DNA of 64,000 bases. It comes from Neolewinella litorea (GTDB lineage: Bacteria > Bacteroidota > Bacteroidia > Chitinophagales > Saprospiraceae). The stretch spans positions 744,501 through 808,500 of the forward strand of contig NZ_SRSF01000001.1 of the NCBI RefSeq assembly GCF_004803465.1, written 5' to 3'. Shown piece after piece: positions 1,142 through 29,375 of the stretch (the first letter of the stretch is position 1; each line of letters starts with the position of its first letter). Under the pieces are notes generated by a model. The model did not search any database. It was not told where the DNA came from and saw only the letters and a list, made by a program, of their open reading frames with translations. The position numbers and the translations under genes are program-made.

Positions 1142-1142
1142 C

Positions 1143-7791: not shown

Positions 7792-7799
7792 GTCGTTTA

Positions 7800-10438: not shown

Positions 10439-10450
10439 TTCACGGCTTCC

Positions 10451-11658: not shown

Positions 11659-11685
11659 GCTTCCCGGCGCCCGGCGGCGGGGCGG

Positions 11686-11693: not shown

Positions 11694-11697
11694 CGTT

Positions 11698-12246
11698 TTA
11701 CAGATCGGCTTCGGGCACAAAATTGAGCGCCGCGCCATTGATGCAGTAGCGTAAACCGGTGGGTTCCGGACCGTCGGGAAAGACGTGGCCCTGGTGCCCC
11801 CCACAGCGGGCGCAGCTTACCTCTACGCGCTCCATACCAAACTTGCGGTCCACATCCTGCTGGATATAGAGTGAATTGATCGGCTCGTAAAAACTTGGCC
11901 AACCTGTGCCGGACTCAAATTTTGTACTGCTGCTGAACAGCGGCAGTCCGCAAGCACGGCAGGCGAATACGCCGGCTTCCTTTACGTCATTAAGTGGACT
12001 GCTGAAGCTGGGCTCGGTCCCGTCTTCCCGCAGAACGTGAAACTCCTGGTCGGTTAGGATGCTCTTCCAGTATTTGGTGGTGGTGTCAATCCTGTTTATC
12101 TCGCCAGGCTGCGCCGGGGGGTCGTAGCGGTATTCGGGCAAATCCGGCGTAACCCCGGCCGCGACGTCGGAACTCGACGCGGTGGTCTGGGAAGTGGAGT
12201 TGCAGGCCAGTACGAAAAGCAGGGCCAGAGAAAGCAGGATACGCAT
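11698..12246 (-). CDS. msrB: Peptide-methionine (R)-S-oxide reductase, lipoprotein
   Basis: Reduces the R form of methionine sulfoxide in proteins. At 182 aa, a lipoprotein signal (L-F-V-L-A-C, Cys15) and a linker precede the MsrB domain (about 55-180). The zinc pairs are Cys96/Cys99 (C-R-A-C) and Cys145/Cys148 (C-A-R-C), with G-T-G-W-P-S-F at 113-119. The catalytic Cys168 lies in R-Y-C-I-N-G-A-A-L-N-F. The lipid anchor puts it in the periplasm, protecting envelope proteins from oxidation. No MsrA is adjacent. Confidence 0.95.
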   Translation of the reverse strand: MRILLSLALLFVLACNSTSQTTASSSDVAAGVTPDLPEYRYDPPAQPGEINRIDTTTKYWKSILTDQEFHVLREDGTEPSFSSPLNDVKEAGVFACRACGLPLFSSSTKFESGTGWPSFYEPINSLYIQQDVDRKFGMERVEVSCARCGGHQGHVFPDGPEPTGLRYCINGAALNFVPEADL

Positions 12247-12328
12247 GGTAGAAGATTTGTTGCTATAACGTCCGATTGGGGCGGGAGGGTTTAGGGGTTT
12301 CTATCCACTGTCGCCACCCCGGCTACCA

Positions 12329-13807
12329 TTACTCGGCTGCCCCCCCGATCCAGGTGGGTAAACTGGTGGCATTAAACTCCCACAGCCACGGCAGGGCGAA
12401 GTAGCACACCAGCGCTATGACCAGAATGGAAATCAGGTTGAGCCAAAGTCCGGCGCGCACCATGTCCGGTATCGTCAGGTACCCCGACCCGAATACCACC
12501 GCGTTGGGGGGCGTGGCTACCGGCAGCATGAAGGCACAGGTGCCGGCCAGGCAGGCCGGCACCATCAGGGTGAAGGGGTGAACGCCTAGGGGCAGTGCGG
12601 CCGCCGCTAATACCGGCATAAGCATCGAGGTGGTGGCCACGTTGCTCGTAATCTCCGTCATAAAGTTAACGGCCGCGGTGACCGCCAGGACCACCACTAG
12701 CAATCCCACGCCCTCCGGTATTCGCAGGGATGCTCCGATGTATTCCGCCAGTCCACTCACGCCAAAACCGGCCGCCAGGGCAAATCCGCTACCCAGCAGC
12801 AAAATGATACCCCAGGGCAACTTCACCGCCTCCGACCATTCGAGCAGGGCCCGGTCGTCGCCCCCGGGGCCAGGCACCAGAAAGAGGGCAATACCCCCTA
12901 TGATCGCGATGATCGGATCATCAAAGCCGGGCAGAAACCGTTCCAGTACGCTGGTCCGAAAGATCCAGGCCAGGGCCGTGACGCTGAAAACCGCCAGCAC
13001 CTTTTTTTCCTCGGCGGACATAGGCCCCAAAGCGGCCAACTGACGGCGCACCTCTTCCCGCCCGCCGCGAAAGGCCCGCTGCTCGAAGCGGAAAGCCACC
13101 CGTGTTAGATACCACCAACACATCAGCAGCAGTATCACGGCAATGGGAAAGCCCAACATGAACCAGCGCGCGAAACTGATCTCGACGCCAAATGCTTCCC
13201 GGACCACGCCCGCGAAAACCAGATTGACCGGGGTCCCGATAAGGGTAGCCATGCCCCCGATGGAGGCGCTATACGCCACGGCCAGCATCAGGGCCTTGCC
13301 GAATTGCTGGTTCTCGTTCACTTGCGTGGAGGGGTCGTCGCCCAGGTGGGCGGCGATGGCTGTGGCGATGGGGAGCATCATGACGGCAGTGGCCGTATTG
13401 GAGATCCACATGGAAAGCAGGGCGGTGGCCGCCATGGCCCCCAGGATGATCATGCGCACGTTGGAACCGATCAGGGCAATGACGCCCAGGGCGATACGCC
13501 GGTGCAGGTTCCACTTCTCGATGGCCATCGCAATGAGGAAGCCACCCAGGAAAAGGAACACGTAGCGGTGTCCGTAACCAGCCGTGGTAACATCCAGGTC
13601 GGCCGCTCCCGACAGCGGAAAAAGCACAATCGGCAGAAGGGCGGTAACCGCGATGGGCACCGCCTCCGTCACCCACCAGACTGCCATCCAGACCGTAGTG
13701 GCCAGTACGGCCGTGCCCGCCGGGGGAAGACCTTCGGGGCGCAGGAACAACTGGCAGGCGATAAACAGTAGCGGCCCGAGGAATAAGCCCAGTGTGCGGG
13801 TATTCAT
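12329..13807 (-). CDS. DASS (SLC13) sodium/anion symporter
   Basis: A 492-aa membrane protein of the divalent anion:Na+ symporter family, which carry dicarboxylates, sulfate or similar anions. About eleven to twelve helices are visible. The two family S-N-T motifs are represented by I-S-N-T-A-T-A (about 136-142) and T-S-N-V-A-T-T in the second half. The C-terminal signature P-V-A-T-P-P-N-A-V-V-F-G-S-G is intact. Its start codon overlaps the glycerate kinase stop by 4 bases (13804-13807), so translation is coupled. This context makes glycerate or a related hydroxy-acid a reasonable guess for the substrate; the sequence does not decide it. Confidence 0.9.
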   Translation of the reverse strand: MNTRTLGLFLGPLLFIACQLFLRPEGLPPAGTAVLATTVWMAVWWVTEAVPIAVTALLPIVLFPLSGAADLDVTTAGYGHRYVFLFLGGFLIAMAIEKWNLHRRIALGVIALIGSNVRMIILGAMAATALLSMWISNTATAVMMLPIATAIAAHLGDDPSTQVNENQQFGKALMLAVAYSASIGGMATLIGTPVNLVFAGVVREAFGVEISFARWFMLGFPIAVILLLMCWWYLTRVAFRFEQRAFRGGREEVRRQLAALGPMSAEEKKVLAVFSVTALAWIFRTSVLERFLPGFDDPIIAIIGGIALFLVPGPGGDDRALLEWSEAVKLPWGIILLLGSGFALAAGFGVSGLAEYIGASLRIPEGVGLLVVVLAVTAAVNFMTEITSNVATTSMLMPVLAAAALPLGVHPFTLMVPACLAGTCAFMLPVATPPNAVVFGSGYLTIPDMVRAGLWLNLISILVIALVCYFALPWLWEFNATSLPTWIGGAAE

Positions 13808-14937
13808 GTTCGGGGAGTTGTATCATCCCCGCCCACCTTTCCGTGGCGGTTGGCCAGGTAGTCGTAAACCGTTTCCTCGAGCAGTTCCGCGGCGCGCAAC
13901 ATACTTTCCTCCTTGCTCACGCCCTTTCGGTCCAGGGCGAGGATGGCTTCCGCGCCAAGCTCGGAAGCGGAGAGTTCCGAGGTGCCGCAAACCGCGACGG
14001 TTGGCCGGTGATGACGCAGGACTCCAGCAACTACTTTACCATGTAAGGTTTGGCTATCGATTTTTCCTTCCCCCGTCAGTATCAGGTCGGCATGCCGGGC
14101 CAGCTTTTCGAACCCTACAGCTGCGAACAGGCCGTCTACCCCGCTTTCCAGTCGCGCGCCGAGAAAGGCCACGGCTCCCGCCCCCAGGCCACCGGCGGCA
14201 CCCGCACCCTTGAGGTGGCGAACGTCAACCTTCAATTGGTCTGCTATGCAATCGGCAAAATGCGCCTGGTTGCTTTCCAGCGTAGGCAGATCGTCGTCCG
14301 TGGCGCCCTTCTGGCGGGCGTAGGTATAAGTGGCGCCCTCGGGGCCCAATAGTGGGTTATCGACGTCGCAGAGGGCCGTGATGGTGGCTTTGGCGAGCCC
14401 GGGGTGGCGACCCTCGGTAATGATCCGGTCAACGAATTTCAGACTGTCCGCCATGGGTACGAAATCGTAGCCCTGCTTGCTGATGAATCGATAGCCCAGG
14501 GCAGCCGCCATTCCGGCCCCGCAGTCGCTGGTGGAGCTACCACCCAACAGCAGGGTAATATCCGTGGCACCACGGGCCAGCGCGTCGTCAATCAAGGTTC
14601 CAACACCCACCGTAGTAGTGTTGCGCGGATCGCGGCGGGGCCCCGGTACCAGGTGCAGCCCGCAGGCGGTGGCTGATTCGATTACGGCCCGCCCGTTGCC
14701 GAGCAGGTATTCGGCATCGAGCGGACGGCGCAGGGGGCCGGCCACCGTCAGGCGACGGCGCTTCATCCCCGGCCGCCGGGCCAGCAGGGCAAGACTCCCT
14801 TCGCCCCCGTCGGCAAGGGGCTGCACGTTTATGTCTGCGTGGGGCAAGGCACGCCGCACCCCCCGGGACATTGCCCGGGCGGCAGCTTCGGCCGTAAGGC
14901 TTCCCTTGAATTTATCGGGGCAGATCAGAATATTCAC
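13804..14937 (-). CDS. Glycerate kinase (GarK/GlxK type)
   Basis: Phosphorylates D-glycerate with ATP, feeding it into lower glycolysis. At 377 aa it matches the type I family. It opens with I-L-I-C-P-D-K-F-K-G-S-L-T-A and has P-L-A-D-G-G-E-G at about 41-48. Further on it has L-L-L-G-G-S-S-T-S-D-C-G-A-G-M and G-A-G-A-A-G-G-L-G-A-G, and a late L-I-L-T-G-E-G-K-I-D. It sits between a DUF1080 protein (12-base gap upstream) and a DASS transporter (4-base overlap downstream), an arrangement for uptake and use of a sugar-derived acid. The 2- or 3-phosphate product cannot be told from the sequence. Confidence 0.92.
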   Translation of the reverse strand: MNILICPDKFKGSLTAEAAARAMSRGVRRALPHADINVQPLADGGEGSLALLARRPGMKRRRLTVAGPLRRPLDAEYLLGNGRAVIESATACGLHLVPGPRRDPRNTTTVGVGTLIDDALARGATDITLLLGGSSTSDCGAGMAAALGYRFISKQGYDFVPMADSLKFVDRIITEGRHPGLAKATITALCDVDNPLLGPEGATYTYARQKGATDDDLPTLESNQAHFADCIADQLKVDVRHLKGAGAAGGLGAGAVAFLGARLESGVDGLFAAVGFEKLARHADLILTGEGKIDSQTLHGKVVAGVLRHHRPTVAVCGTSELSASELGAEAILALDRKGVSKEESMLRAAELLEETVYDYLANRHGKVGGDDTTPRT

Positions 14938-14949
14938 CGGCGCGACGGG

Positions 14950-15684
14950 CTAAAGCTCCCGCACCCAGATGTTGCGGTAGGCGACCTTGTTGCTGTGGTC
15001 CTGTAGCTTGATCACGTCGTCGCCGTGGGCCACATAATGGGGTAAACCGATGTACTCGGTGGGGCCTTTGACCTCGAAGTGGTTCAGGACCACCACGCCG
15101 TTCATGAGCAGGGTGACGTAGGCGGGCCGGATTAGCATGCCGTCGTCGTTGAAGTGGGGCGCATTGTAGATGATGTCGTAGCTCTGCCACTCGCCCTGCG
15201 GCTTCAGCGCATTCACCAGCGGTGGCGTTTGCTTGTAGACCGATCCGGCCTGGCCGTTGGTGTAAGTATCGCTGCCTTCGCTTTCCAGCACCTGGATTTC
15301 GTAGCGGTTCTGTAGGAAGATACCGCTATTGCCGCGTTGCTGTCCTTCCTTATCGGGTTCGGCCGGCGACTTCCATTCCACGTGAAGTTGCATGTCGCCG
15401 AACTTGCGGCGGGTAGCAATATCGCCGGACCCGGGATTGACCACCAGGGTGTTACCTTCTTTCGTCCATTCGGCCGGGCCACCGCCGTTGGCGCTCACCC
15501 ATTCGCTGGCGTCGGCTCCTTCGCCAAGCAGCACGATCGCGTCGGCGGGGGGGTCACCGAGTTGATTGCCGGGCTTGACCTTCGGCGGTACCGGTTCGTA
15601 ATATTCCGTGGCTTTGGGGTCCGTAATTTGCCCGTAACACGATACGGCCACAAGGCAAAGCAGGAGAGAAAAGGTATGGCGCAT
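14950..15684 (-). CDS. DUF1080 (3-keto-disaccharide hydrolase-like) secreted protein
   Basis: A 244-aa exported protein with a signal peptide (M-R-H-T-F-S-L-L-L-C) from the ATG at 15684; the longer start at 15708 would add charged residues before it. The DUF1080 domain is a concanavalin-like beta-sandwich. It shows D-M-Q-L-H-V-E-W-K-S-P, then G-N-S-G-I-F-L-Q-N-R-Y-E-I-Q-V-L-E-S, G-E-W-Q-S-Y-D-I-I-Y and the closing I-W-V-R-E-L. Some members cleave 3-keto-glycosides. It is first in the operon with glycerate kinase and the DASS transporter, which suggests glycan or sugar-acid breakdown. The exact substrate is unknown. Confidence 0.87.
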   Translation of the reverse strand: MRHTFSLLLCLVAVSCYGQITDPKATEYYEPVPPKVKPGNQLGDPPADAIVLLGEGADASEWVSANGGGPAEWTKEGNTLVVNPGSGDIATRRKFGDMQLHVEWKSPAEPDKEGQQRGNSGIFLQNRYEIQVLESEGSDTYTNGQAGSVYKQTPPLVNALKPQGEWQSYDIIYNAPHFNDDGMLIRPAYVTLLMNGVVVLNHFEVKGPTEYIGLPHYVAHGDDVIKLQDHSNKVAYRNIWVREL

Positions 15685-15735
15685 GATTGATGTTCTAGTT
15701 CTCGCCAAGGTAGCAACTACCCATCAATTTGTTCC

Positions 15736-17128: not shown

Positions 17129-18331
17129 TTAATCTTCCACCCGCAGGTAAAAAGTAGTAATGACCACCAGCACCAACATCAGCAGAGCTACTACGCCCAG
17201 GCCCACCCGTAACCCTTCTACTCCCGGAAGCAGCGGCAGGCCCTCCGGCAGCCGACTGCTCTGGAAGTCCGAGACGAAGCCGATCACGGGCGGTCCGAAC
17301 AGAAAGGCTGCGTATCCGATCGTGCTGACCGAACTGATGCCCACGCCGGGTCGCAGCCCCGGAACCTTGCTGGCCTGACTGAACACCACCGGTACAATAT
17401 TTGACAAGCCCAGGCCCACCAGTCCAAATCCGGCAATCGCCACGCCCGGAAGCGGAATCAGGATGGCCAGGCTGACCCCGATCAGTGCCAGGGCCGCACC
17501 GCTGACCACGATAGTCCGCGACCCCAGGCGGCTGCGGCCAAAATCCCCGAAGGCCCTGCCCAGGAACATGGCACCACTGAAGGAAGCCTGCGCCAGCGGG
17601 GCGAGGACCTCAGGACTGCCCGTTACCCGGGTCATGTAGAGCGGCGTCCAATCTGCCATGGCCCCCTCCCCCACCATGGTACAAAGGGAGGCCAGTCCGA
17701 GCAACACGATGGCGAAGGTGAACTTGCTACCCGAATTGCCCCCTGCGTCGGCCACCGGACCGGGGCGATCCTGCAGAAAATGGCGCAAGGCGTATACCGA
17801 CACCAGCATACTGATCAGGCTGACCGTCAAAAGATGAGGACCCAGATCGAGACCCAGCGATATAAACCCGGCCGCGGATCCGGCCCCCACGAACATGCCC
17901 CCCGAAAAGCACGCGTGAAAGGAAGAAGTGATGGGCTTACCCCACAGCTTCTCCACCTCTACCGATTGCGCGTTCACCGCGACGTCCATCACGCCGGTGG
18001 AAATCCCGATCAGGGGCACTACCGCCAATAAGGCCCAGTAGTTGGGCATGTACGCCATCAGGGGCACGCTCAGCACGAATACAAGGGTGGAAATGATGGC
18101 CAATCGACGACTGCCGCTACGCACGATCAGAAAACCCGCCAGCGGCATCGCCACGAGCGCTCCCAGGGCGAGGGACGTAAGGACGAAACCCGTCTCCCCG
18201 TTATCGATTCCGTACAATTCCTGCAGCCTCGGCAGCCGGCTCGTCCAGTTGGCGTACACCAGCCCATTGATGGCGAAAGCCAGGGAAACCCCGATACGGG
18301 TGCGGAGAAGGGAAGCCGAACGTTGGATCAT
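17129..18331 (-). CDS. MFS transporter (YbjJ-like)
   Basis: A 400-aa major facilitator with about twelve helices. Family features include N-W-T-S-R-L-P near the first helix, G-V-M-D-V-A-V-N-A-Q-S-V-E-V in the fourth to fifth helix region, and S-S-F-H-A-C-F-S-G-G-M. This pattern resembles the uncharacterised YbjJ group rather than drug exporters. I chose ATG 18331 (M-I-Q-R-S-A-S), which avoids overlap with the upstream gene; a start at 18376 would overlap it. It follows the VCBS lipoprotein operon after 20 bases and may be its last gene. Substrate unknown. Confidence 0.85.
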   Translation of the reverse strand: MIQRSASLLRTRIGVSLAFAINGLVYANWTSRLPRLQELYGIDNGETGFVLTSLALGALVAMPLAGFLIVRSGSRRLAIISTLVFVLSVPLMAYMPNYWALLAVVPLIGISTGVMDVAVNAQSVEVEKLWGKPITSSFHACFSGGMFVGAGSAAGFISLGLDLGPHLLTVSLISMLVSVYALRHFLQDRPGPVADAGGNSGSKFTFAIVLLGLASLCTMVGEGAMADWTPLYMTRVTGSPEVLAPLAQASFSGAMFLGRAFGDFGRSRLGSRTIVVSGAALALIGVSLAILIPLPGVAIAGFGLVGLGLSNIVPVVFSQASKVPGLRPGVGISSVSTIGYAAFLFGPPVIGFVSDFQSSRLPEGLPLLPGVEGLRVGLGVVALLMLVLVVITTFYLRVED

Positions 18332-18351
18332 ATTGTATGGAGGCCACGAAA

Positions 18352-20925
18352 CTACGGCAGCCGCAGCACTACCCACGCGCCGTCCGCGAAATCGATCCGG
18401 TACCGGTCCCGGCCGGCGATCCGGATATGGCGGGCCTCGCGATGATTGTAGCCGGGACCAAGATCAATAAACTCCACCCTGCCGTCCGGCCGCAGGAGCT
18501 GCAGGGCTGCCGCATCCTGCCGACCTACCCGCGGCAGTACGTCGAGCTTGTTGCCCGCCAGGAGGTAACCGGAGGGCGTCGGCAAAATTGAATTAATTGG
18601 CGTGAGCTGGGTAGCTACCGGTAAGGATTGCGCTGCCCATTCGCCCTCCGTATTCCGCACGATCCGCACGTGAGCCAGGTTTTCCGCCTGCAGCGGCTCC
18701 ACCTCCAGGTTGGGGAAGTTCTCGCGGAAGCCCCGGCGACTGAAGTCGGCGTAACTGAGGTTATTGCGCCGCCAGGCGGGGAATTGACCGGCCAGCTCGT
18801 CCTTGTCTGCCAGGGTGTATTCCTTCCCTCCCCGCACGTAGGTGATCAACGGATCCCTTCGCCCGTTGCCATCCACGTCTACGAGGTAAAGACGCAGGGG
18901 CTCCGCGCTGGTTGGCTCCCCCAGTGAACTGTTCCACCCCCAATTTCCCGCCAGAATTTCTTCCCGGCCCGCTTCCCCGACAATCGCCAGCGACTGCCAC
19001 CAACCGCGCGTACCCTCCACTACTTCGTACGCCCACTGTCCGTCTACCCTTCGGCCGATGCGAATCGGTAGCCACATGCCGGCCTCTACCCGAAGGTCCG
19101 CAGTCTCCACCTGCAGGGTGTACTCCGGTTTACCATCAGGCACGGCGCCAGGGAAGGGTTGCAGCGGGTCGCGGTCGAAAGTGTTGTCCGCGCCCGGTAC
19201 TGATATCGGGGCGTCACTGCCGTATTCCACGATTGCGTAGGCCGTAGAGTCTGCCGTTGTAGCTGGAACGCCACGGGCCCGGGTGCCCGGCCCGGCATAA
19301 TCCGACTGGGAGAGGAACCCGCGCTGCCGCGCCATCATAAAGGGGGCTCGAGTGACCGCATCCCGCGCACCCGGTGCCCGCAGGCCCCCTTTCAGCCCTT
19401 GAGTATTGTTTGAAGCCGCGCTGTCGGGCTGCTTCCGGTGGCCATCCCGCACCGTATTCTCGTACAGGATTGCCGGGGCGTTGACGTTATTGATCACCAG
19501 ATCGGGATCACCATCGCCGTCAAAGTCCGCCGTGGCCGCCCCCGTGGTGCTGCCGTGGAAGCTGAGCCCCCACTCGACCGGTCGGTAGCGCAGAGCAGTA
19601 TCGCGCTTGAAGACCACGTTGGGGACGTGCCCCGAAGGCATCATCTCGGCTACGGCCAAATTGCTGCTTTTGCGGGCCACAGCGCTGCTGATAAATTTCA
19701 GGTAATCCAGGTCATTCGGACGCCGCTCAATGCCGTTGGCCACGAATATTTCGTCGGTGCCGTCAAGGTCGAAATCCTCGATGAGCACCGACCAGCTCCA
19801 GTCGGTGGCGGCCAGTCCGGACATTTCGCCGATTTCAGAGAAATTCCCTCCCCCGCGGTTCCACTGCACGTTATTGCGCGGCAACTGGTCGTGGTAACCC
19901 GCCCGCCGCTTCAGCCGGTAAAGGTTATACGGCTCGGCGCTGACCGTAGCTTTTAGCACTTCTTCATTTTCGGGGCGCATGTCGAGCGTCACGAGGTCGG
20001 GCCGTCCGTCGTTGTCCAGGTCCCCCACGTCGCTTCCCATGCTGAAATTCGAGGTGTGACCGGTGCGCTCCCGAATCACTTCTTCAAAGGTCTCACCCGC
20101 CCGGTTAAGGTAGTAGTAGTCATTCTCGGAGAAATCGTTGCAGACGTAGATATCCGGGTACCCATTGCCATCGAAATCCGCCACCGCCGCACTCAGTCCG
20201 TAACCGATGCGGGAGGAGTAGAGGCCCATTTGCCGGGTCACATCCCGAAAGCTCTCTCCCTCGTTGCGCAGCAAACGGTCCCCAGCCAGAGAATCCGGCA
20301 CCTCGCGCTCCGCCGCATCGCGGTAGGTCGCGTCGTTGTGCACGGAATGCCGCAGCAGGTAGACGTCCTCGTCTCCATCCAGGTCATAATCGAACCAGTA
20401 CGCCTGGGTGTTGAAACCCCCGAAGTCCAGTCCATAATTCGCTGCCCGGTCCTGGAAGGTACCGTCGGACTGCTGCACGAAAAGTTCGTTCTTGCCGCTC
20501 AGGCCCTTGTAGCCATCGACGTTGCAGACGTAGATATCGGGCAGGCCGTCTGCATTGACGTCGGTGACGCTTACGCCGGTCGACCACTGCCCGGCACCAG
20601 CGACGCCGGCTTCTTCGGTAGCATCGCGGAAGCGCCAGTTCCCCTCGTTGATAAAGTAGGCGTTGGGGCGTTGATTATTGGTAAAATAAAGATCCGGAAG
20701 CCCGTCGCCGCTGATGTCGGTAGCGGCTACCCCGCCCCCGTTGTAGTAGTAGAGGTATTCCACGATGTTGAGCGATTCCGTGGGACGCAGTTCGTTGATG
20801 TTGTTCACGCCGGTGCCCTGGCGCACTTTAAACAGGGGAGCCGGGGCCTCTTCTGCTGCACGGTCGCAGGTGCAAAGCACCGAGATCAGGGACAGTGCAA
20901 CGATGGTTCCGCTCCCCCACCTCAT
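18352..20925 (-). CDS. VCBS/FG-GAP repeat lipoprotein I, no ASPIC/UnbV domain
   Basis: An 857-aa exported protein, probably a lipoprotein (Cys near residues 18-20). Many calcium-type repeats, such as D-I-S-G-D-G-L-P-D-L-Y and D-F-D-G-D-G-D-P-D-L, are spread over residues 60-510, the pattern of a beta-propeller. It aligns by eye with its two operon paralogues up to P-A-I-L-Y-E-N-T. There they continue into an ASPIC/UnbV domain, but this one changes to about 130 low-complexity residues. The last 250 residues regain W-Q-S-L-A-I-V and V-D-V-D-G-N-G-R-R-D-P. Its start overlaps the previous gene's stop by 4 bases (20922-20925). Confidence 0.85.
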   Translation of the reverse strand: MRWGSGTIVALSLISVLCTCDRAAEEAPAPLFKVRQGTGVNNINELRPTESLNIVEYLYYYNGGGVAATDISGDGLPDLYFTNNQRPNAYFINEGNWRFRDATEEAGVAGAGQWSTGVSVTDVNADGLPDIYVCNVDGYKGLSGKNELFVQQSDGTFQDRAANYGLDFGGFNTQAYWFDYDLDGDEDVYLLRHSVHNDATYRDAAEREVPDSLAGDRLLRNEGESFRDVTRQMGLYSSRIGYGLSAAVADFDGNGYPDIYVCNDFSENDYYYLNRAGETFEEVIRERTGHTSNFSMGSDVGDLDNDGRPDLVTLDMRPENEEVLKATVSAEPYNLYRLKRRAGYHDQLPRNNVQWNRGGGNFSEIGEMSGLAATDWSWSVLIEDFDLDGTDEIFVANGIERRPNDLDYLKFISSAVARKSSNLAVAEMMPSGHVPNVVFKRDTALRYRPVEWGLSFHGSTTGAATADFDGDGDPDLVINNVNAPAILYENTVRDGHRKQPDSAASNNTQGLKGGLRAPGARDAVTRAPFMMARQRGFLSQSDYAGPGTRARGVPATTADSTAYAIVEYGSDAPISVPGADNTFDRDPLQPFPGAVPDGKPEYTLQVETADLRVEAGMWLPIRIGRRVDGQWAYEVVEGTRGWWQSLAIVGEAGREEILAGNWGWNSSLGEPTSAEPLRLYLVDVDGNGRRDPLITYVRGGKEYTLADKDELAGQFPAWRRNNLSYADFSRRGFRENFPNLEVEPLQAENLAHVRIVRNTEGEWAAQSLPVATQLTPINSILPTPSGYLLAGNKLDVLPRVGRQDAAALQLLRPDGRVEFIDLGPGYNHREARHIRIAGRDRYRIDFADGAWVVLRLP
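19270..19287 (-). repeat. 18-base GC-rich repeat, 15 of 18 match
   Basis: On the minus strand GGCACCCGGGCCCGTGGC, three mismatches from the consensus. It encodes G-T-R-A-R-G inside the segment of VCBS protein I that replaces the ASPIC/UnbV domain. Confidence 0.4.
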
Positions 20926-23900
20926 CGTTCCAGTAGTGCCGGGGCGGCGTTATTTCTTGCAAATACATACCGGCCGTCACTAAGCACGGCGATACCGCGG
21001 ATTTCGCCGGGGATCTTGAGGCCACTCTCCGCGGCGTCCACGGCCGTAAAGTTGCCCTGCCCGTCGTTGCGCAGCAACAGTCCGCGGCCGGCGTCGTAGC
21101 GACCCATTTCGGGTTTGACGTAGTAAAAGTTGCCGCCGAGAATCAGGTCAGGATCCCCATCCGCATCTACGTCATCCACCGCAATGGCGTAAACGGGGGT
21201 TTCCTGCGCGGCGTGGGGTAGGAAGCGCACGGCCAGCTCCCCTTCCCCGTGGTTCATCAGCACGAGTGAGCGAAATTCCGTGGCCGCGTAGTAAACGCTC
21301 TTGCCCAGCAGTTCGGCTCCAAAAATGTCTTCCATGGTTTCGTCTCCGAAGTCGGTGTATTTCAGGTACCGTTTCCGCAGACCCGGCATTTGCTTCACGA
21401 GGTCGTGGAGCAGCGGCGTGGGGTACGCCCGGTCGCCTTCGTACATGGAGACGACCTGCTCGGCCGACCCGTTACCGTCGAAGTCGTTGACGTGCATCAT
21501 CACGGGGCGGTCGGCCGTGGCGCGGAACCGGCTGTTCAGCCCGTGATTGCCCAGCACGACGTCCTCGCGGCCGTCCCCATCCAGGTCGGCAATCTCCAGG
21601 GCGGTGTACCAGCCGGTTAGTTCAGCTATCTCCTCGGGTAGTTCGATTTTCGACAACTGTCCGTCAGCATAGGCAAAGGCCGTCGGGGCCATGAATTCTC
21701 CTACCACCAGCAATTCCTTGCGGCTATCACCCGTCAGGTCCACCCAACCGGCGGCGGTCACCATTCCCAGGTTCTCAACCGTTTGCTCCTCAAATTTGCC
21801 GTCGCCGTCGTTCAGCAAAAGGTAGCTGTCGGCCGGTACCCCATATACGCCGGAGCGCAGGCGGCTGCCGACAAACAGGTCCAGGTCGCCGTCGCCGTCG
21901 ATGTCATACGGCGCCACCGCCCCTCCGGCAGAGGTCTGGCGGGCGGAGGGCAGCAGCTGCGTGCTTTTCGTCCACCCCCCGGGTCCGTTGAGGTACAGTC
22001 GGTCAAACAGCGCGGTGGAGGCGTTACCGAATTCACTGCTCCCGCTGACGACGTACAGGTCCTCGTCGCCGTCGCCGTCCGCATCAAAGCAGGCACAGGC
22101 TACATCCTCGCTCACTTTATCTGCTTCCAGCATTGCCGTGGCCCGGCTGCGGTACCCTTCCCCGGCGGAGACGTAAAGTCCTCCACTCTGGTCTCGCGCA
22201 CCCCCAAGGTAGAAATCCTCTCGACCGTCGCGGTTGAAATCACCGGCACAGAGCGCGGGTCCGTCGGCGCTCAGCATGTGGTAGATAAGTGGGTCGCGGT
22301 CAAAGTCGCTGTAGCGGTTCTCCCGGTGCACGAAGTCGATGCCGCGGAGGGCGGGTGCCACGTCCCGCAGCAGGGCCGGGGGCGGTGGTGGGGGGCTTTC
22401 CGCGGGGGAGGTAGCCGACTGTGCCTCCGAAACGATGAGCAATTGATCTACGGCCGGCCCCGGCAGGGAGGACTGTTTGCCGTTAGGCCATACGATATCT
22501 ACGCGGTCGATGTAATCGATGTCCCCCAGTCCAAAGTGCAGCCGATACTGCATGCTGGATTCAAAGCCGCGCATGGGCATGTGCTCCAGGTAAAATTCCC
22601 GATCGCCGGATACGACCGTGGCCTTGGCCCCCACGGCAAAGGGGTTATTGCCCTTCCCCCGCAGTTCAAGTTGCAGCCAGTGATTACCGGAGCTGTGGTT
22701 GCGGTAGACTAGCGCGGCGGCGTTGGTATTGTTGATCACCAGATCCAGGTCGCCGTCGTTGTCCAGGTCACCGTAGGCGGCGCCATTGCTAAAACCTTTC
22801 AGGTCAAGACCCCATTCCTGCGCCATGTTCCGGAAGCGGTAGTCTCCCGCAGGTCCCAGGTTCTGAAAGGCAAAGTTGCGCACGGGATTGGACGGGATGG
22901 CATCGACCAACACACTGAAGTCGACCTTGCCGGTGGCCGTCACCTTTCGCTTGAATTCATCGTCGGCGATGTAGTCCAGGAAGTCCCGGTTGGTCAGGTC
23001 CTGGTAGATCCCGTTCGCTACGAACAGGTCTTTGTAGCCATCGTTGTCCATGTCAAAAATCAGCGCGCCCCAGCTCCAATCGGTAGCCTCCACGCCGCTT
23101 AGCCGCCCGATTTCGGTGAACGTTCCGTCGCGGTTGTTGCGCTGCAGCACATTGCGGGTAAACTGGTGGAAGTAGTCGTTCTTCAGGTTGTACTGGTAGC
23201 GGTTCCAGTTTTCGAAGGTGGTGGCCTCCTTCATCCGCTGATTGGAGGCCGGCAGCATTTCGGTGACGAAGAGCTCGCTGTATCCATCGTTGTCGATATC
23301 CGCCAGATCGGCCCCCATGCTGGCGGCACTGATCGACTGCATGGCTTCAGTGAGGGTTTCCCGGAAGGTTCCGTCGCCGTTGTTCATATACAGGTAGTCG
23401 CGCTCGAAGAAGTCGTTGCTCACGAAGATGTCCGGCCAGCCGTCCTTGTCGACGTCGCCCACCGTAACCCCCAGTCCGAAGCCGATGATGGAGCCGTAGA
23501 TACCCGCTTCCTCACTCACGTCGTAGAAGAAGCCATCACGGTTCTGGTACAGACGATCACCCCCGATGGAGTCCCGGACAGGGCGTACGTTGCGCTCCAG
23601 ATTAAAGGATCCGATAGCCTGGTAACTGTTGTTGAGGAGGTAAAAATCGAGGTCACCGTCCTGGTCGTAATCGAAGAAAACCCCGTGGGTACTCAGGCCT
23701 TCGTTGTCCAGACCGAATTCGGCGGCGGCTTCCCGGAAGGTGCCGTCCTGCTGGTTGATAAACAGTTCGTTGCGGCGGTTGTCGCCGTCGATGTCACCGG
23801 AGTTGCATACGTACAGGTCCAGAAAACCGTCGGCATTTACGTCCGCCATGGTTACGCCCGTACTCCAGGCAGCCCGTCCCCCTACCCCGGCGGTTTCGGT

Positions 23901-24242
23901 TACGTCTTCAAAACGCATGTCCCCCCGGTTGAGGAACAGTCGATTGGCTACCCGGTTGCCGCTCAGGTAGATGTCCGTAAGTCCGTCGTTGTTGACGTCG
24001 CCCAGGGCTACCCCACCCCCGTTGTAGAAATTACGGTAAGTGTATATGTTGAAGTCCTCGTCGAAGTCCAGGGTATTGGCAAAGAGAACCCCCGAAACCT
24101 CCGGGGCCAGGGCCTCGAACCTTCGCTGACCATCCCAGGGCGGAGCATTGTTTTCGATAACCGGATCGGCCTGGCATCCTGCCCACAGGTACAGCACCAG
24201 CGCACCCGCCAAAACCTTCGTGAAATGGAATACACGCATCAC
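20922..24242 (-). CDS. VCBS repeat lipoprotein II with ASPIC/UnbV domain
   Basis: A 1106-aa lipoprotein (signal ending L-W-A-G-C). The first half has at least six VCBS/FG-GAP repeats, for example D-V-N-N-D-G-L-T-D-I-Y, D-V-D-K-D-G-W-P-D-I-F and D-L-D-N-D-G-D-L-D-L-V. An ASPIC/UnbV domain follows at about 560-645 (L-Q-L-E-L-R-G-K, then V-G-A-K-A-T-V, H-M-P-M-R-G-F-E-S-S, V-D-I-V-W-P-N-G-K). A Pro-rich linker leads to a second set of repeats up to the end. It is surface- or periplasm-facing and the repeats probably bind calcium. The binding partner is unknown. It overlaps the gene before and after by 4 bases each. Confidence 0.88.
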   Translation of the reverse strand: MMRVFHFTKVLAGALVLYLWAGCQADPVIENNAPPWDGQRRFEALAPEVSGVLFANTLDFDEDFNIYTYRNFYNGGGVALGDVNNDGLTDIYLSGNRVANRLFLNRGDMRFEDVTETAGVGGRAAWSTGVTMADVNADGFLDLYVCNSGDIDGDNRRNELFINQQDGTFREAAAEFGLDNEGLSTHGVFFDYDQDGDLDFYLLNNSYQAIGSFNLERNVRPVRDSIGGDRLYQNRDGFFYDVSEEAGIYGSIIGFGLGVTVGDVDKDGWPDIFVSNDFFERDYLYMNNGDGTFRETLTEAMQSISAASMGADLADIDNDGYSELFVTEMLPASNQRMKEATTFENWNRYQYNLKNDYFHQFTRNVLQRNNRDGTFTEIGRLSGVEATDWSWGALIFDMDNDGYKDLFVANGIYQDLTNRDFLDYIADDEFKRKVTATGKVDFSVLVDAIPSNPVRNFAFQNLGPAGDYRFRNMAQEWGLDLKGFSNGAAYGDLDNDGDLDLVINNTNAAALVYRNHSSGNHWLQLELRGKGNNPFAVGAKATVVSGDREFYLEHMPMRGFESSMQYRLHFGLGDIDYIDRVDIVWPNGKQSSLPGPAVDQLLIVSEAQSATSPAESPPPPPPALLRDVAPALRGIDFVHRENRYSDFDRDPLIYHMLSADGPALCAGDFNRDGREDFYLGGARDQSGGLYVSAGEGYRSRATAMLEADKVSEDVACACFDADGDGDEDLYVVSGSSEFGNASTALFDRLYLNGPGGWTKSTQLLPSARQTSAGGAVAPYDIDGDGDLDLFVGSRLRSGVYGVPADSYLLLNDGDGKFEEQTVENLGMVTAAGWVDLTGDSRKELLVVGEFMAPTAFAYADGQLSKIELPEEIAELTGWYTALEIADLDGDGREDVVLGNHGLNSRFRATADRPVMMHVNDFDGNGSAEQVVSMYEGDRAYPTPLLHDLVKQMPGLRKRYLKYTDFGDETMEDIFGAELLGKSVYYAATEFRSLVLMNHGEGELAVRFLPHAAQETPVYAIAVDDVDADGDPDLILGGNFYYVKPEMGRYDAGRGLLLRNDGQGNFTAVDAAESGLKIPGEIRGIAVLSDGRYVFARNNAAPALLER

Positions 24243-24841
24243 TGTACCAACCCGAGCGGGTCGCGTTTCAGGGAAGACAAATCAACGATCATGGCCGTCA
24301 CACTCGTGTCGTCCACTTTCCAGAGGGCCACCAGGCGACTGCCGTCAACGGATGCGAAGGTGCGGCCGTGCTGGGGATGCTCCAGTTCAATGAATTCGGT
24401 GGACAGGGTCCGGCTGAGGTAATCGGCCACGTCCGGCAGCAGGTTCTCGGCGTACGCGGCCTTGTTCCAGGGCGACCAGTCCTGGTAAATAAATTCCGTC
24501 TGCATAGCCTGGACGATGCGCGGGTTCTGCTGGGTGAAGATGGGGCGGAACGACAATTTCGCCGGGCGGTCAAGGTCGTTTTCCATCAGGTGATCCGCCT
24601 CGGTGCCCCCGCGGCCCATGGTGATCAATTGCTGACGGTTCAATTCGGTGCAGCGGTCGAAGTAGGCCGTGTCGGTGATTCCGAGGTTAAGGCCGAGCAC
24701 CGTTTCCCTGGCTTCCAGATCGGCGTTCAGCCCCTCAGTAACGGCAGACCGGTAGCGACCGACGGGGCTTTCGTCCTTGGGCTGGCACGACCAGCAAAAG
24801 CCGAGGAGCATGAGGCAGCAGAGAAAAAGGGTTGGCTTCAT
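24239..24841 (-). CDS. Uncharacterised 200-aa lipoprotein in VCBS operon
   Basis: A 200-aa lipoprotein (signal M-K-P-T-L-F-L-C-C, lipobox near F-C-W-S-C, Cys19). I do not recognise the family. Visible features are a likely helical stretch with E-A-R-E-T-V-L-G-L-N-L-G-I, the segment R-G-G-T-E-A-D-H-L-M-E-N-D-L, an aromatic patch F-I-Y-Q-D-W-S-P-W-N-K, and a C-terminal beta-like half (L-V-A-L-W-K-V-D-D, then T-A-M-I-V-D-L). No catalytic motif stands out. It lies between two VCBS paralogues with 4-base stop/start overlaps on both sides, so it is almost certainly made in fixed proportion with them and may be a structural partner. Confidence 0.8.
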   Translation of the reverse strand: MKPTLFLCCLMLLGFCWSCQPKDESPVGRYRSAVTEGLNADLEARETVLGLNLGITDTAYFDRCTELNRQQLITMGRGGTEADHLMENDLDRPAKLSFRPIFTQQNPRIVQAMQTEFIYQDWSPWNKAAYAENLLPDVADYLSRTLSTEFIELEHPQHGRTFASVDGSRLVALWKVDDTSVTAMIVDLSSLKRDPLGLVQ

Positions 24842-27800
24842 TTGGTGATGGTTTGCAATTTCGATAGCGGGCCATTCGAACGCGCGATCAGAAAGGCCGG
24901 CGGGGCAGTCTCACGTCCGGGTAGTACGGCGATCGCCCGCACGTCGCCCGCAAGGTACAGGGCTGCGCTTTGGGGCTCTACGGTTATGAACGTTCCATCC
25001 CCCCGGCCAAGCAGCATGGCACCGAATCCGGCGGCGTAAATTCCCACTTCCGGTCGTCCGACCGACTGGTTGCCGGCCAGTAGCAGGTCGGGTACGTCAT
25101 CACCGTTGATATCGGCGGCAGCAATGGCGTATACGGGTGCGAACTGGACCTCGGTGGGCAGGGGGTGAACGTCCGGCGCCGAACCCCTATTCAGCACAAC
25201 TACTGAGCGCAGTTCCTCGGCTCGGTTGATGATGGATCTTTCCAGCAGGCTCGCCCCGAACAGATCATGCAACGTCTTGCCGGGGTAGTCAGCGTAGCGT
25301 TGCAGTTGTTTGCGTAGGCCGGGGAGTTGCTTGACCAGGTCGTCGCGCAATACGAGCGGCAATGGTATTCCCTCCGGGCCGTAGTGGGTCAGAATCTGTT
25401 CCGGCTTTCCGTTGCCGTCGAAATCGTTCACGTAAAGTTCCAGGGGCCGTTCCGCGGTGGCGGTCAGCCGGGAGTTCAGGCCGTGGTTACCCGCCACTAC
25501 GTCCTCGCGCCCGTCGCCGTCTAGGTCAGTAGCCACTACGGCGTGCCACAATCCGGACGTTCCCGCTACGACCTGCAGTTCGCGGTATTCACCGTCTGGT
25601 GAAAAGTGCAGGTAACGGATGGGGCTCCATTCGCCGACCACCACCAGCTCCAGTTCCGGGTCGTCGTCGACATTGGCCCATACGGCATCCGTGATCATGC
25701 CCAGGTGGTCGAGCGCCGAGAGATCGGCAGGGCGGAACTGGCCGTCGCCTTCGTTAAGCAAGAGGTAGCTGGTGGCGGGGACGCCATAGGTGCCGGGGCG
25801 CAGGCGGCCGCCTACAAACAGGTCCGTATCTCCGTCGCCATCCACATCGTGCGCGGCTACGCATCCGCTCGCCACAAACTGTGAGCCCAGCGGCAGCAGC
25901 TGTTCGTTGCGGCGCCACCGACCGCCGCCGAGGTTGAAGTACAAGTCATCCAGTAAATTGGCTGAGGCCGGTCCGAACTGATTACTCCCGTTGGCAACGT
26001 AGAGGTCCTGATCACCGTCACCGTCCGCGTCGAAGAAGGCAGCAGCCACGTTCTCCGCGGCGGACCGTTCAGCAAATATCTCCGGCGCTACCGCTTCGAA
26101 GGTTCCGTCTGCAAGGCCTCGCAGAAGCCGGCCAGCTTCACCGGCCGCTCCTCCGAGGTACACATACCGGCGACCGTCTGATTCCAAATCACTTACCGCC
26201 AGGGCCGGACCTTCGTTGTTAAGGCCGATAAACAGCAGGGGATCGCGGTCGAAATCCACGGCAGGGTCTTCGCGGTGTACGATAGCCGCCCCGCCAGCCG
26301 TCGCGTCCGTGAGTTGCCATTGGGGAACCATGGGGGCTTCCGTTTTTACCGGGCGGGCGATCTGCGCCTGGTCAGAAATCGTCCTGCCCTCCCCCTGCAC
26401 GACTGCCGCGACCGATCCGGTATCGAAGCGCGAAAAACTTTCCGCTTGGCCGTCCGACCAGTACACCGTGACCGAATCAAGGGGGCCGGGGGCGTGAATC
26501 CGTTTGTCCACCGTACTCTGAAATCCGCGCATGGGGTGCAGTTCAGCGTAACCGGCCAGGCTGTCGCTGCGGTGTAATATCAGGCGGGCACCGATGCCAT
26601 CCGGATTACCCGGTATCGAGGAACGAAGATGGAGCATCTTGCCGGCCCGCTTACTGTTGTTGCGGTAGAGGCCGGCTACGGCATCGACGTTGTTGATCAC
26701 GAGGTCGAGGTCGCCGTCGTTGTCCAGGTCCGCATAGGCGGATCCGTTGCTGAAGCCGGGCTGATCGAGCCCCCAGGCTTGCGCGGTTTCTTCAAAGGTC
26801 AGGTCGCCCCGGTTACGGAAGATGGCATTCGGTAGCGGTTCCGAAGGAATCAGGTCGATCAGATCGGTCATCCCTTTACCTTCTTCGTGGATCATCCGGC
26901 GCACGGCGGCGGGGTTGCCGTTGAAGTTGATGTAATCCTGGTCAAGCAGGTCCTTGCCGGTGCCGTTCGCCACGAATATGTCGCGCCATCCGTCGTTGTC
27001 AAAATCGGCCAACAGCGCTCCCCAGCTCCAATCGGTGGCCTCGACCCCCGAAAGACGACCGACTTCCGAAAAGTATCCGTTTCCGCGATTGAGTTGCAGT
27101 ACGTTACGACTGAACTGCTGGTGGTAGCCTTTATCCCGGTACAGCTGGTAGCGGTTCCAACCGTCGAAGGCGGCCTTGGTCTTGTATCGCCGGTCGTCGG
27201 CCGGCAGCATCTCGGTTACGAAAAGGTCAGGCAGGCCGTCGTTGTTGATATCGGCCAGATCGGCGCCCATGCTGCCCTTACTGATCTCCGCCAGGTGGCC
27301 GGGGAGGGTTTCCACAAATGTGCCGTTGCCCTGGTTGACGTAGAGGTAGTCGCGCTCGAAGTAATCGTTGCTGATGAAGAGATCGGAAAAGCCGTCAAGG
27401 TTGATATCGCCCACCGTGACGCCAAGACCGAAGCCGATGTTGGATGAGTAGATGCCCGCCTCCTGCGTGACGTCCGTAAAACGGTTTTCTCCGCTTTCAA
27501 CCAGTTGGTTGCGGTACAGTCGATTGCCGCCCTCCTGATCCGGGATGTCGCGCAGCCCCTCCTTCAGGTCATAACCGGTGGTCGCTCGGGTGGAGTTATT
27601 GAGGAGGTAGCAGTCGAGATCACCGTCTCCGTCGTAGTCGAAGAAGGCGGAGTGTACCGAAAGGCCCACGACGTCTAGTCCGTAGGCGGTCGCGGATTCG
27701 GTGAAGGTTCCGTCGCCGTTATTGATGAATAGCTCGTTGTGGCGTACTCCCGTCATGCCAGGAATTGCTTCCCCGGCGGGCGGGCCGGCCTTGCAGACGT

Positions 27801-28212
27801 AGATATCCTGCCAGCCGTCGGCGTTGATGTCCGCTACGGCCACCCCGGTGCTCCAGCTGTCGGGCGCACCTACGCCGGCTGCGGCGGTGACGTCCTCGAA
27901 CTGCCAGTCGCCGCGGTTGAGGTACAGGCGGTTTTGTACCAGGTTTCCGGTGAAGTACAGATCCGCCAGCCCGTCGTTGTTAAAGTCGCCAATGCCCACC
28001 CCGCCTCCGTTGTAGAAGTTGCGGTAGGTATAGGGGTTGAGTTGGTCAGTATAGTCCAGGTCGTTGCTGAATTCTACTCCGGTTGTCGCGGCACCCGGCG
28101 CGGTCATCCAGGAAAACAGTTTGTCCGCAGGCACGTCGAGGGCGTCCGTTCGCTCGGACGAGCAGCCGAGCACCAGTCCACAACAACAAAGTATAAAGGT
28201 TAGCGTACGCAC
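24838..28212 (-). CDS. VCBS repeat lipoprotein III with ASPIC/UnbV domain
   Basis: A 1124-aa lipoprotein, first gene of the overlapping operon. I take the GTG at 28212 because it begins the lipoprotein signal V-R-T-L-T-F-I-L-C-C-C-G-L-V-L-G-C; the frame upstream runs into the exonuclease gene without signal character. VCBS repeats fill the first half (D-F-N-N-D-G-L-A-D-L-Y, D-I-N-L-D-G-F-S-D-L-F). The ASPIC/UnbV domain covers about 570-650 (G-I-G-A-R-L-I-L, H-P-M-R-G-F-Q-S-T, V-Y-W-S-D-G-Q). A second repeat set follows, with L-D-G-D-G-R-E-D-V-V-A-G-N-H-G-L-N shared with protein II. A near -7 box (TATCTTCG on -, + 28219-28226) would give almost no leader. Confidence 0.88.
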   Translation of the reverse strand: MRTLTFILCCCGLVLGCSSERTDALDVPADKLFSWMTAPGAATTGVEFSNDLDYTDQLNPYTYRNFYNGGGVGIGDFNNDGLADLYFTGNLVQNRLYLNRGDWQFEDVTAAAGVGAPDSWSTGVAVADINADGWQDIYVCKAGPPAGEAIPGMTGVRHNELFINNGDGTFTESATAYGLDVVGLSVHSAFFDYDGDGDLDCYLLNNSTRATTGYDLKEGLRDIPDQEGGNRLYRNQLVESGENRFTDVTQEAGIYSSNIGFGLGVTVGDINLDGFSDLFISNDYFERDYLYVNQGNGTFVETLPGHLAEISKGSMGADLADINNDGLPDLFVTEMLPADDRRYKTKAAFDGWNRYQLYRDKGYHQQFSRNVLQLNRGNGYFSEVGRLSGVEATDWSWGALLADFDNDGWRDIFVANGTGKDLLDQDYINFNGNPAAVRRMIHEEGKGMTDLIDLIPSEPLPNAIFRNRGDLTFEETAQAWGLDQPGFSNGSAYADLDNDGDLDLVINNVDAVAGLYRNNSKRAGKMLHLRSSIPGNPDGIGARLILHRSDSLAGYAELHPMRGFQSTVDKRIHAPGPLDSVTVYWSDGQAESFSRFDTGSVAAVVQGEGRTISDQAQIARPVKTEAPMVPQWQLTDATAGGAAIVHREDPAVDFDRDPLLFIGLNNEGPALAVSDLESDGRRYVYLGGAAGEAGRLLRGLADGTFEAVAPEIFAERSAAENVAAAFFDADGDGDQDLYVANGSNQFGPASANLLDDLYFNLGGGRWRRNEQLLPLGSQFVASGCVAAHDVDGDGDTDLFVGGRLRPGTYGVPATSYLLLNEGDGQFRPADLSALDHLGMITDAVWANVDDDPELELVVVGEWSPIRYLHFSPDGEYRELQVVAGTSGLWHAVVATDLDGDGREDVVAGNHGLNSRLTATAERPLELYVNDFDGNGKPEQILTHYGPEGIPLPLVLRDDLVKQLPGLRKQLQRYADYPGKTLHDLFGASLLERSIINRAEELRSVVVLNRGSAPDVHPLPTEVQFAPVYAIAAADINGDDVPDLLLAGNQSVGRPEVGIYAAGFGAMLLGRGDGTFITVEPQSAALYLAGDVRAIAVLPGRETAPPAFLIARSNGPLSKLQTITK

Positions 28213-28870: not shown

Positions 28871-29212
28871 CTATAGCCTGGGCATTCGGGCCTTGATGTC
28901 GGAATGGTACGCCTTGCCCAGCTTCAGTTGGTGATTGTTCAATTCGAGAACACCTTCGGCAAAACTGATCCGGCTCACCTGCGTGAAATTCACCAGCAGG
29001 CCCCGGCTTACCCGGACGAAGTCGCCTCCGTCCAGCTCTTCGGCGATCGCCGCCAGGCTCCGCTTGATGGCAAAACGCTTGTCGGTGGTCTGGATGTGGG
29101 CGTAGTTTCCGTCTGCCTCGATGTACTGGATGTCGCTGAGAGGGATTTTGAGGTAATCGGTGCCGTCGCGCAGGAAGAGGTGGTCCAGTTTCGGGCGGTT
29201 GTAAGAATTCAT
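28871..29212 (-). CDS. LytTR DNA-binding domain protein
   Basis: A 113-aa protein made almost entirely of a LytTR DNA-binding domain: L-K-I-P-L-S-D-I-Q-Y-I-E-A-D-G-N-Y, then K-R-S-L-A-A-I, and F-V-R-V-S-R-G-L-L-V-N. There is no receiver domain, so it is not a classical response regulator and may be controlled by its level or a partner. The ATG at 29212 (M-N-S-Y-N-R-P) is preferred to one at 29299, which would reach into the divergent promoter region of phzF. A near -7 box (CATATTTG on -) lies upstream. Confidence 0.88.
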   Translation of the reverse strand: MNSYNRPKLDHLFLRDGTDYLKIPLSDIQYIEADGNYAHIQTTDKRFAIKRSLAAIAEELDGGDFVRVSRGLLVNFTQVSRISFAEGVLELNNHQLKLGKAYHSDIKARMPRL

Positions 29213-29375
29213 ACGTGGAAGTTGGATTGAGATTTGGTTAGGGGTAGGGTTAACCGGATTTTCGCGGATGCGGTCATATGGCAAATATGCGCAAACCACA
29301 CAATTCTTTACGAAGTCACCTGAACCCTCGGTTTTTTACTTCATCACATTTATCAGTCGCAATAAACGTTATTAC

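Follow-up and report, generated by a model that had tools for sequence, protein, structure and literature searches.

A small lipoprotein encoded among FG-GAP propeller lipoproteins of Neolewinella litorea: a probable partner module of a distinct class of SusCD-type importers

Introduction

The SusCD importers are one of the main nutrient entry routes of Bacteroidota, and the reports cited here place the accessory parts of such importers on the cell surface. In the levan and dextran utilisomes of Bacteroides thetaiotaomicron, as excerpted from PMC7618045, the additional lipoproteins comprise a glycoside hydrolase located at the surface and a glycan-binding protein. BtuG of the vitamin B12 transporter BtuBG is a single seven-bladed propeller acting as a lid, according to the excerpt of PMC10404256. 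Among the papers listed in a literature search, from which most subscription papers and preprints are absent, none joins SusCD with VCBS or FG-GAP lipoproteins. The present analysis concerns an operon of four lipoprotein genes in a window of 64,000 nucleotides (C1:744501-808500) of the draft genome of Neolewinella litorea (4.4 Mb, 39 contigs). Three of the genes encode large proteins, VCBS I, II and III; the label SMALL is used for the lipoprotein of 200 residues encoded between VCBS III and VCBS II. The operon is probably the lipoprotein partner module of a distinct class of SusCD-type TonB-dependent importers, which has been split from its SusC-SusD pair in most SMALL-bearing members of the genus.

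Gene organization of the operon

The genes of the operon and the transporter gene that follows them are given below in the direction of transcription.

24838..28212, minus strand (GTG start at 28212): VCBS III, lipoprotein of 1124 residues with FG-GAP repeats and UnbV_ASPIC, directly before SMALL
24239..24841, minus strand (ATG start at 24841): SMALL, lipoprotein of 200 residues, unnamed family
20922..24242, minus strand (start GTG 24242 or ATG 24239): VCBS II, lipoprotein of 1106 residues with FG-GAP repeats and UnbV_ASPIC
18352..20925, minus strand (ATG start at 20925): VCBS I, lipoprotein of 857 residues with FG-GAP repeats and no UnbV_ASPIC
17129..18331, minus strand (ATG start at 18331): major facilitator superfamily (MFS) transporter, 20 bases downstream of VCBS I; operon membership doubtful

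These coordinates bear out the initial annotation, in which the four genes run in one direction and are followed by the MFS gene 20 bases on. It had also placed an overlap of four bases at each joint. This holds for the VCBS III/SMALL junction (AAATGAAG) and the VCBS II/VCBS I junction (CGATGAGG), both with the overlap ATGA, while at the SMALL/VCBS II junction (CAGTGATGCG) it depends on the start codon chosen, with an overlap of four bases from GTG 24242 and of one base from ATG 24239. The shorter overlap is at least as likely, since the open reading frame of VCBS II starts between one base before and three bases after the SMALL stop in all six of the nearest relatives (L019-L024). Because ATGA overlaps are frequent in bacterial operons, the overlaps by themselves prove little, and it is the conserved gene order that provides the evidence.

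All four proteins are lipoproteins, as judged by inspection of their N-termini, and the column of the lipid cysteine is occupied in 73 of 74 aligned SMALL rows and in 60 of 60 aligned VCBS II rows. Pfam places FG-GAP repeats in all three VCBS proteins and UnbV_ASPIC in VCBS II and III only, the matches of II and III being above the cut-offs.

Linkage to SusC and SusD

A profile of SMALL was run on 395 genomes spread over the phylum and found the protein in 27 of them, in more than one class. Among named genomes, 212 stretches with SMALL were confirmed and the best 80 of the 212 were kept; 71 of these 80 loci lie outside the genus (Neolewinella/Lewinella), L091-L098 and L102 being excluded. The named loci come from the Lewinella group, Saprospiraceae, Cyclobacteriaceae (Algoriphagus, Aquiflexum, Cognataquiflexum), Chitinophagaceae and Xanthocytophaga, and also from Bacteroidales metagenome-assembled genomes, Rhodohalobacter, a Rhodothermaeota metagenome-assembled genome and one contig filed as Neomarinimicrobiota.

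The fullest gene order is SusC-SusD-VCBS III-SMALL-VCBS II-VCBS I. In the 71 loci outside the genus, SusD lies at most two genes upstream of SMALL in 51, and in 48 of the 71 SusC is found further up. In fifteen of the 20 loci without an upstream SusD, the contig stretch ends less than 4 kb from SMALL; the remaining five are L124, L155, L159, L166 and L169. A VCBS gene adjoins SMALL upstream in 46 loci, downstream in 59 and on both sides in 38, and four loci, two of them at contig ends, have no adjoining VCBS gene on the same strand. In 20 of the 80 named loci SMALL immediately follows SusD, and the intervening VCBS gene is missing. Eleven of these 20 belong to Algoriphagus, Aquiflexum or Cognataquiflexum, where the sole VCBS protein, encoded directly after SMALL, is VCBS I-like in the tree.

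Within the genus, a survey of 60 genomes (the window genome and 59 relatives, extending to the order) found SMALL in 17, namely the window genome itself, 13 of the 20 others of the genus, 3 of the 16 others of the family and none of the 23 others of the order. The match in G007 is weak (E 5e-5). Gene order was compared in 12 other loci of the genus (L019-L030), G007's not among them. VCBS III directly precedes SMALL in all 12, with an overlap of four bases in 11 and of one base in L030, where the SMALL open reading frame was called too long. VCBS II directly follows SMALL in 11 of the 12, and the contig of the twelfth ends at SMALL. VCBS I comes after VCBS II in seven loci and is not there in four, one of which (L028) has a VCBS I homologue about 5 kb further on; the last contig is cut. 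The MFS gene follows the operon, after VCBS I, in only six of the 12, and it was therefore rejected as a general part of the system.

The VCBS-SMALL-VCBS order is thus kept in relatives within and beyond the genus, and SMALL is no chance passenger; nor is it missing wherever the VCBS genes of this set occur. The initial annotation is otherwise only partly supported. The three VCBS proteins are not always present as a trio, as shown by the seven of 12 genus loci with VCBS I after VCBS II, the 20 named loci with no VCBS gene between SusD and SMALL and the four loci with no adjoining VCBS gene. The operon is also not a self-contained set: its usual partner elsewhere is a SusC-SusD pair, which the initial annotation missed.

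The partner was sought in the genus with the SusD of G011, a member that retains the linked order (L030), as the query. The search returned an orthologue in each of the 13 SMALL-bearing genomes of the genus that were covered; one of these is the genome of the query itself, and the orthologues in the other 12 are 53-60% identical. The match in the window genome is at C1:560979-562538. The seven genus genomes without SMALL gave matches of 31-38% or none, and G007 gave 47%. Because a 38% match was also obtained in G029, which bears SMALL, the test was repeated with a profile built for this SusD class. Scores were 753-811 bits in the 13 SMALL-bearing genus genomes and 552 in G007; the seven without SMALL, of which G010 is 55% complete, scored at most 294 bits or nothing. 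In the rest of the family, the SMALL-bearing G034 and G033 scored 815 and 671 bits and genomes without SMALL at most 368. The genes found in the window genome are as follows.

about C1:560976-562574, minus strand, outside the window: SusD (Pfam SusD)
C1:562654-565734, minus strand, outside the window: SusC, TonB-dependent receptor with plug and carboxypeptidase-regulatory-like domains (Pfam)

This SusC-SusD pair (C1:560976-565734; L201 9977-14735) lies about 197 kb from the operon. In 12 of 12 stretches, from the window genome and 11 others (L201-L212), SusC and SusD are paired, and neither VCBS nor SMALL is matched. The pair is split from the lipoprotein genes in 12 of the 13 SMALL-bearing genus genomes examined, and G011 alone keeps the linked order. 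In a FastTree phylogeny of 102 SusDs, the 12 split SusDs form one group (support 99) inside a SMALL-linked clade of 84 rows (support 99), next to the SusD of L030, and the four other SusDs of the window genome (L035, L036, L037, L038) fall outside this clade. The L038 SusD and one of the two L144 SusDs were wrongly labelled as linked in the tree and were left out of the alignment and motif counts.

The same association was found across the 395 phylum genomes. A SusD of the class (at least 570 bits) is present in 29, the next score being 519. Both SMALL and this SusD occur in 25 genomes, SMALL only in two, SusD only in four and neither in 364 (Fisher p 3e-33, relatives not being independent). 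The four SusD-only genomes are all cut, three by a VCBS gene running off the contig end after SusD and the fourth at SusD. Outside the genus, both are kept but apart by about 92 kb in G095 and by about 13-17 kb in G225, G303 and G449. G272 and G425 were also considered as cases of separated halves and were dropped, since the contigs that carry SMALL in these genomes are as short as about 12 and 11 kb and the separation may be fragmentation.

It might be supposed that in the genus the operon has acquired a function of its own together with the adjoining MFS transporter, the link to SusCD being an ancestral relic. The distance of about 197 kb, the MFS gene 20 bases downstream and its recurrence after the operon in six of the 12 other genus loci agree with this, as does the shortened VCBS I. 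However, 12 genomes of the genus have kept both SMALL and its SusD since the split and seven have neither (a count uncorrected for relatedness), and the four genomes outside the genus named above also retain both halves apart. We regard an independent function as very improbable.

The SMALL and VCBS proteins

SMALL is present in a single copy in the window genome (search at E 1), and that of the nearest named relative, Neolewinella marina, is 80% identical. The window SMALL has no Pfam or NCBIfam match above cut-off, none of 74 members matches any Pfam family at E 0.01, and neither the single SMALL sequence nor the 74-row profile retrieved a match from the PDB. A Sec15_C match (E 0.015, below cut-off) and the NCBIfam matches of two single members were judged to be noise. 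The residues C19, F48, G50, G54, F60, L67, N68, P100, F102, Y119, W122-P124-W125-N126, L134, R169 and D187, among others, are invariant or nearly so in the 74 rows. In G011 (L030 9577-10846) SMALL is duplicated in tandem, and the second copy is without the otherwise nearly invariant W-P-W-N motif.

The model of SMALL, predicted from 74 sequences, has a mean predicted local distance difference test score (pLDDT) of 95.5 and a predicted template modelling (pTM) score of 0.87. It consists of a helix followed by strands, twice over (helix 57-69, strands 82-119; helix 131-146, strands 151-187). A Foldseek search of the model against the PDB returned nothing at E 0.001 or better. The beta-lactamase inhibitor protein recurs in the top 50 matches and was not accepted as a relative, all 50 having template modelling (TM) scores below 0.4 and none reaching E 0.001.

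The model of VCBS II, built from 42 sequences, has a mean pLDDT of 85.9. Its best PDB match is murine CRTAC1 (9etn_A; Foldseek E 8e-25, TM score by target 0.71), and VCBS III matches the same chain by sequence (E 3.4e-12). The strands and FG-GAP repeats in the other half of the VCBS II model suggest a second propeller there. XAC2610-like NCBIfam matches of the VCBS proteins were below cut-off. The VCBS I open reading frames code for 824-905 residues in seven genus loci, that of the window included, and 1027 in L030; in most loci elsewhere the length is about 1100 residues.

A FastTree phylogeny was computed for 201 VCBS proteins, labelled by position as before SMALL, after SMALL, third or none. 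These labels require 16 changes on the tree, compared with 91.7 in shuffles, and one clade of 58 rows (support 99) contains 56 of the proteins encoded after SMALL, including VCBS II of the window. In L158, L075, L147 and L090 the copies before and after SMALL are close sisters, nearly identical in L090, and this suggests local or recent duplication or gene conversion; for L090 an assembly artefact is an alternative.

Side of the outer membrane

According to the excerpt of PMC5080379, the lipid cysteine of those surface lipoproteins that have been studied in this phylum is closely followed by acidic residues, a feature which serves as a predictor only. The motif was counted as two or more Asp or Glu at positions +2 to +6 after the cysteine, with one lipobox rule for all groups. 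Proteins in which this rule found no lipobox were dropped (linked SusD 1, other SusD 0, SusE 2, BamD 1, SMALL 6, VCBS III 5, VCBS II 0, VCBS I 0). SusDs of the linked clade, that of G011 included, have the motif in 68 of 70 cases and other SusDs in 15 of 18. The controls, drawn from other genomes of the class, gave 5 of 6 for SusE-family open reading frames and 1 of 29 for the periplasmic BamD, with a few of the BamD and other cysteines chosen by the rule falling inside the signal peptide. Outside the genus the motif is found in 3 of 59 SMALL, 2 of 32 VCBS III, 8 of 52 VCBS II and 8 of 22 VCBS I proteins. Counting by alignment column gave the same picture. Among the genus rows, SMALL has the motif in 9 of 9, VCBS III in 4 of 9, VCBS II in 1 of 8 and VCBS I in 2 of 5; the VCBS proteins of the window itself, which are not in these rows, show by eye two acidic residues in VCBS I and one each in VCBS II and III.

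Since SMALL, VCBS II and VCBS III outside the genus resemble BamD in mostly lacking the motif, they look like periplasm-facing lipoproteins, VCBS I less clearly so. The initial annotation had left the choice between a surface and a periplasmic complex, and a surface location is now doubtful outside the genus.

We propose, tentatively, that SMALL and the VCBS propellers may assemble into an acceptor complex at the inner side of the outer membrane, in the periplasm under SusCD, as a mirror image of the surface utilisomes. The lipid-anchored double propellers would there receive cargo as it leaves the barrel. As parts of the same tentative proposal, SMALL would define a new family of lipoproteins characteristic of one importer class, and the Neolewinella group would be the case in which the module is no longer part of the SusCD operon and the acidic motif, absent elsewhere, is present in SMALL.

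In the opposite arrangement, SMALL and the VCBS proteins would be located on the outer side of the cell, at the lip of SusC, and would bind substrate at the surface in the manner of the levan and dextran utilisomes or BtuG. BtuG is an established case of a propeller lipoprotein on a TonB-dependent transporter (excerpt of PMC10404256), and lipoproteins of a polysaccharide utilization locus assemble on SusC (excerpt of PMC7618045). The acidic motif in all nine genus rows of SMALL and the two acidic residues in VCBS I of the window, with one each in II and III, could also fit a surface position. However, outside the genus the motif is rare in SMALL, VCBS III and VCBS II and occurs in 8 of 22 VCBS I proteins, when set against 68 of 70 linked SusDs, even if the motif only predicts. 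A surface assembly is somewhat doubtful.

Neighbouring genes and possible substrate

The neighbours of SMALL were clustered (224 genes, the window-genus loci L091-L098 being excluded; not every cluster member was itself scanned). After the two commonest clusters, which are considered below, come a 3-keto-disaccharide hydrolase of PF06439 (6 loci), an MFS transporter of the nucleoside/H+ symporter type (5 loci) and a GMC oxidoreductase (3 loci). Proteins like PAP2 or vanadium haloperoxidase are found at the end of several operons, and single loci have enzymes of glycoside hydrolase families GH32 or GH130 or of GH5-like or GH78-like type. Across the SMALL loci no constant glycan or 3-keto-glycoside enzyme was found, and several loci have one nearby.

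In the window, the region downstream of the operon contains a PF06439 protein, a glycerate kinase and a transporter of the sodium:sulfate-symporter family. The first of these is the following feature.

14950..15708, minus strand: 3-keto-disaccharide hydrolase (PF06439/DUF1080), N-terminus resembling a signal peptide; no more than a possible pathway partner

The excerpt of PMC9007349 gives hydrolysis of 3-keto-disaccharides as the proposed activity of PF06439 proteins, located in one case in the periplasm. Since the family recurs near some SMALL loci elsewhere, the gene of the window may be a pathway partner. The neighbouring genes give, as our best guess, a small glycoside or disaccharide as the substrate.

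Two further arrangements were observed around these genes. The row formed by these three genes at 12329-15708 of the window (minus strand) resembles, by eye in the case of G002, a row in that genome (L210 1-3530) which lies a few kb upstream of the separated SusC-SusD. Upstream of the operon, at 28871-29299 (minus strand), is a protein with a LytTR DNA-binding domain and no receiver domain, a possible regulator, with homologues upstream of the operon in five other genus loci (L019, L022, L023, L028, L029). A promoter of the form TTTG...TAnnTTTG was searched for in the window and was not found, which settles nothing.

The glycan enzymes near several loci raise the question of whether these are ordinary polysaccharide utilization loci, with SMALL as a minor lipoprotein of no special role and the VCBS proteins in place of SusE/SusF. 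The presence of SusC-SusD-VCBS-GH43 elsewhere in the window genome (L036) is of the same kind. However, SMALL adjoins SusD with no intervening VCBS gene in a quarter of the named loci (the 20 of 80 above), and no family of carbohydrate-active enzymes is among the recurrent neighbour clusters. We consider this explanation unlikely.

Discussion

The preferred reading of the operon, as a lipoprotein module belonging to a class of SusCD importers, can be described as follows. In much of the phylum the module is encoded as SusC-SusD-VCBS III-SMALL-VCBS II-VCBS I or in a shorter form, and in the genus the SusC-SusD pair has been separated from the lipoprotein genes with both halves retained. A substrate, which may be a small carbohydrate or glycoside, would be caught by SusC with SusD as its lid and carried across the outer membrane; its binding or onward transfer would fall to SMALL and the propeller lipoproteins. 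The components may be in physical contact, SMALL serving as a putative adaptor between SusCD and the VCBS proteins.

Several observations weigh against this reading. Among 37 genomes of the genus and family, G029 has SMALL and a best SusD of only 408 bits, the sole further exception, and in the phylum set G264 and G327 have SMALL with no SusD of the class found (three candidates per genome scored). The co-occurrence is not corrected for phylogeny, and a single gain or loss could account for it in the genus. SMALL-linked SusDs served to build the SusD profile, 7 of whose 12 rows come from genomes of the set of 395, and the line at 570 bits was set after the gap was seen, again with only three candidates per genome scored. 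Only 56 of the 84 VCBS proteins encoded after SMALL are in the main VCBS II clade; the other 28 are elsewhere, 11 of them VCBS I-like, and the SusD and VCBS trees are both FastTree only, with long-branch warnings. The guess at the substrate rests on varied neighbours, among which DUF5686 (8 loci) and an M19 dipeptidase (6 loci) form the commonest clusters and do not indicate carbohydrates. Finally, not every VCBS lipoprotein encoded with SusCD has SMALL at its side; the window genome itself has three such loci without it (L035-L037).

If the reading is true, a phylum-wide class of SusCD importers with its own lipoprotein family and, in most members, periplasmic-looking propellers would be a testable candidate for the fate of cargo after SusC. 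SMALL would be a marker for finding and sorting these importers, also where a split operon escapes annotation based on neighbourhood.

Comparison with known systems

The loci L035, L036 and L037 of the window genome are similar to the system described here in having SusC, SusD and a VCBS lipoprotein of about 1100-1200 residues. They differ from it in having neither SMALL nor the VCBS trio, and their SusDs lie outside the SMALL-linked clade. In L035 (C1:500000-519900), positions 836-12364 contain SusC, SusD, a VCBS protein, a weak PAP2/vanadium-chloroperoxidase protein and a second VCBS protein, with no SMALL, as a sister arrangement. A role linked to the beta-barrel assembly machinery was also considered and set aside; the excerpt of PMC12611786 shows no VCBS, FG-GAP or propeller protein.

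By fold, the closest relatives belong to the CRTAC1/FG-GAP-UnbV_ASPIC family, which VCBS II matches by its model and VCBS III by sequence. FG-GAP repeats followed by UnbV_ASPIC, as in this family, are found in VCBS II and III, while VCBS I has FG-GAP repeats only. In contrast to CRTAC1, VCBS II is a bacterial lipoprotein with a second strand-rich FG-GAP half and is encoded in an importer locus.

The levan and dextran utilisomes, in the excerpt of PMC7618045, have a SusCD core joined by more outer-membrane lipoproteins of the same locus, and the present system is similar in this respect. However, its lipoproteins are FG-GAP propellers and an unnamed small protein, most of which outside the genus lack the surface-export motif, and none of the glycoside hydrolases near its loci is constant. 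In BtuBG, as here, a propeller lipoprotein works with a TonB-dependent barrel (excerpt of PMC10404256). The single propeller that replaces SusD as the lid of BtuBG has no counterpart here: SusD itself is present as the lid, VCBS II and III have more than 1100 residues with FG-GAP repeats in both halves, and VCBS II has strand-rich regions in both.

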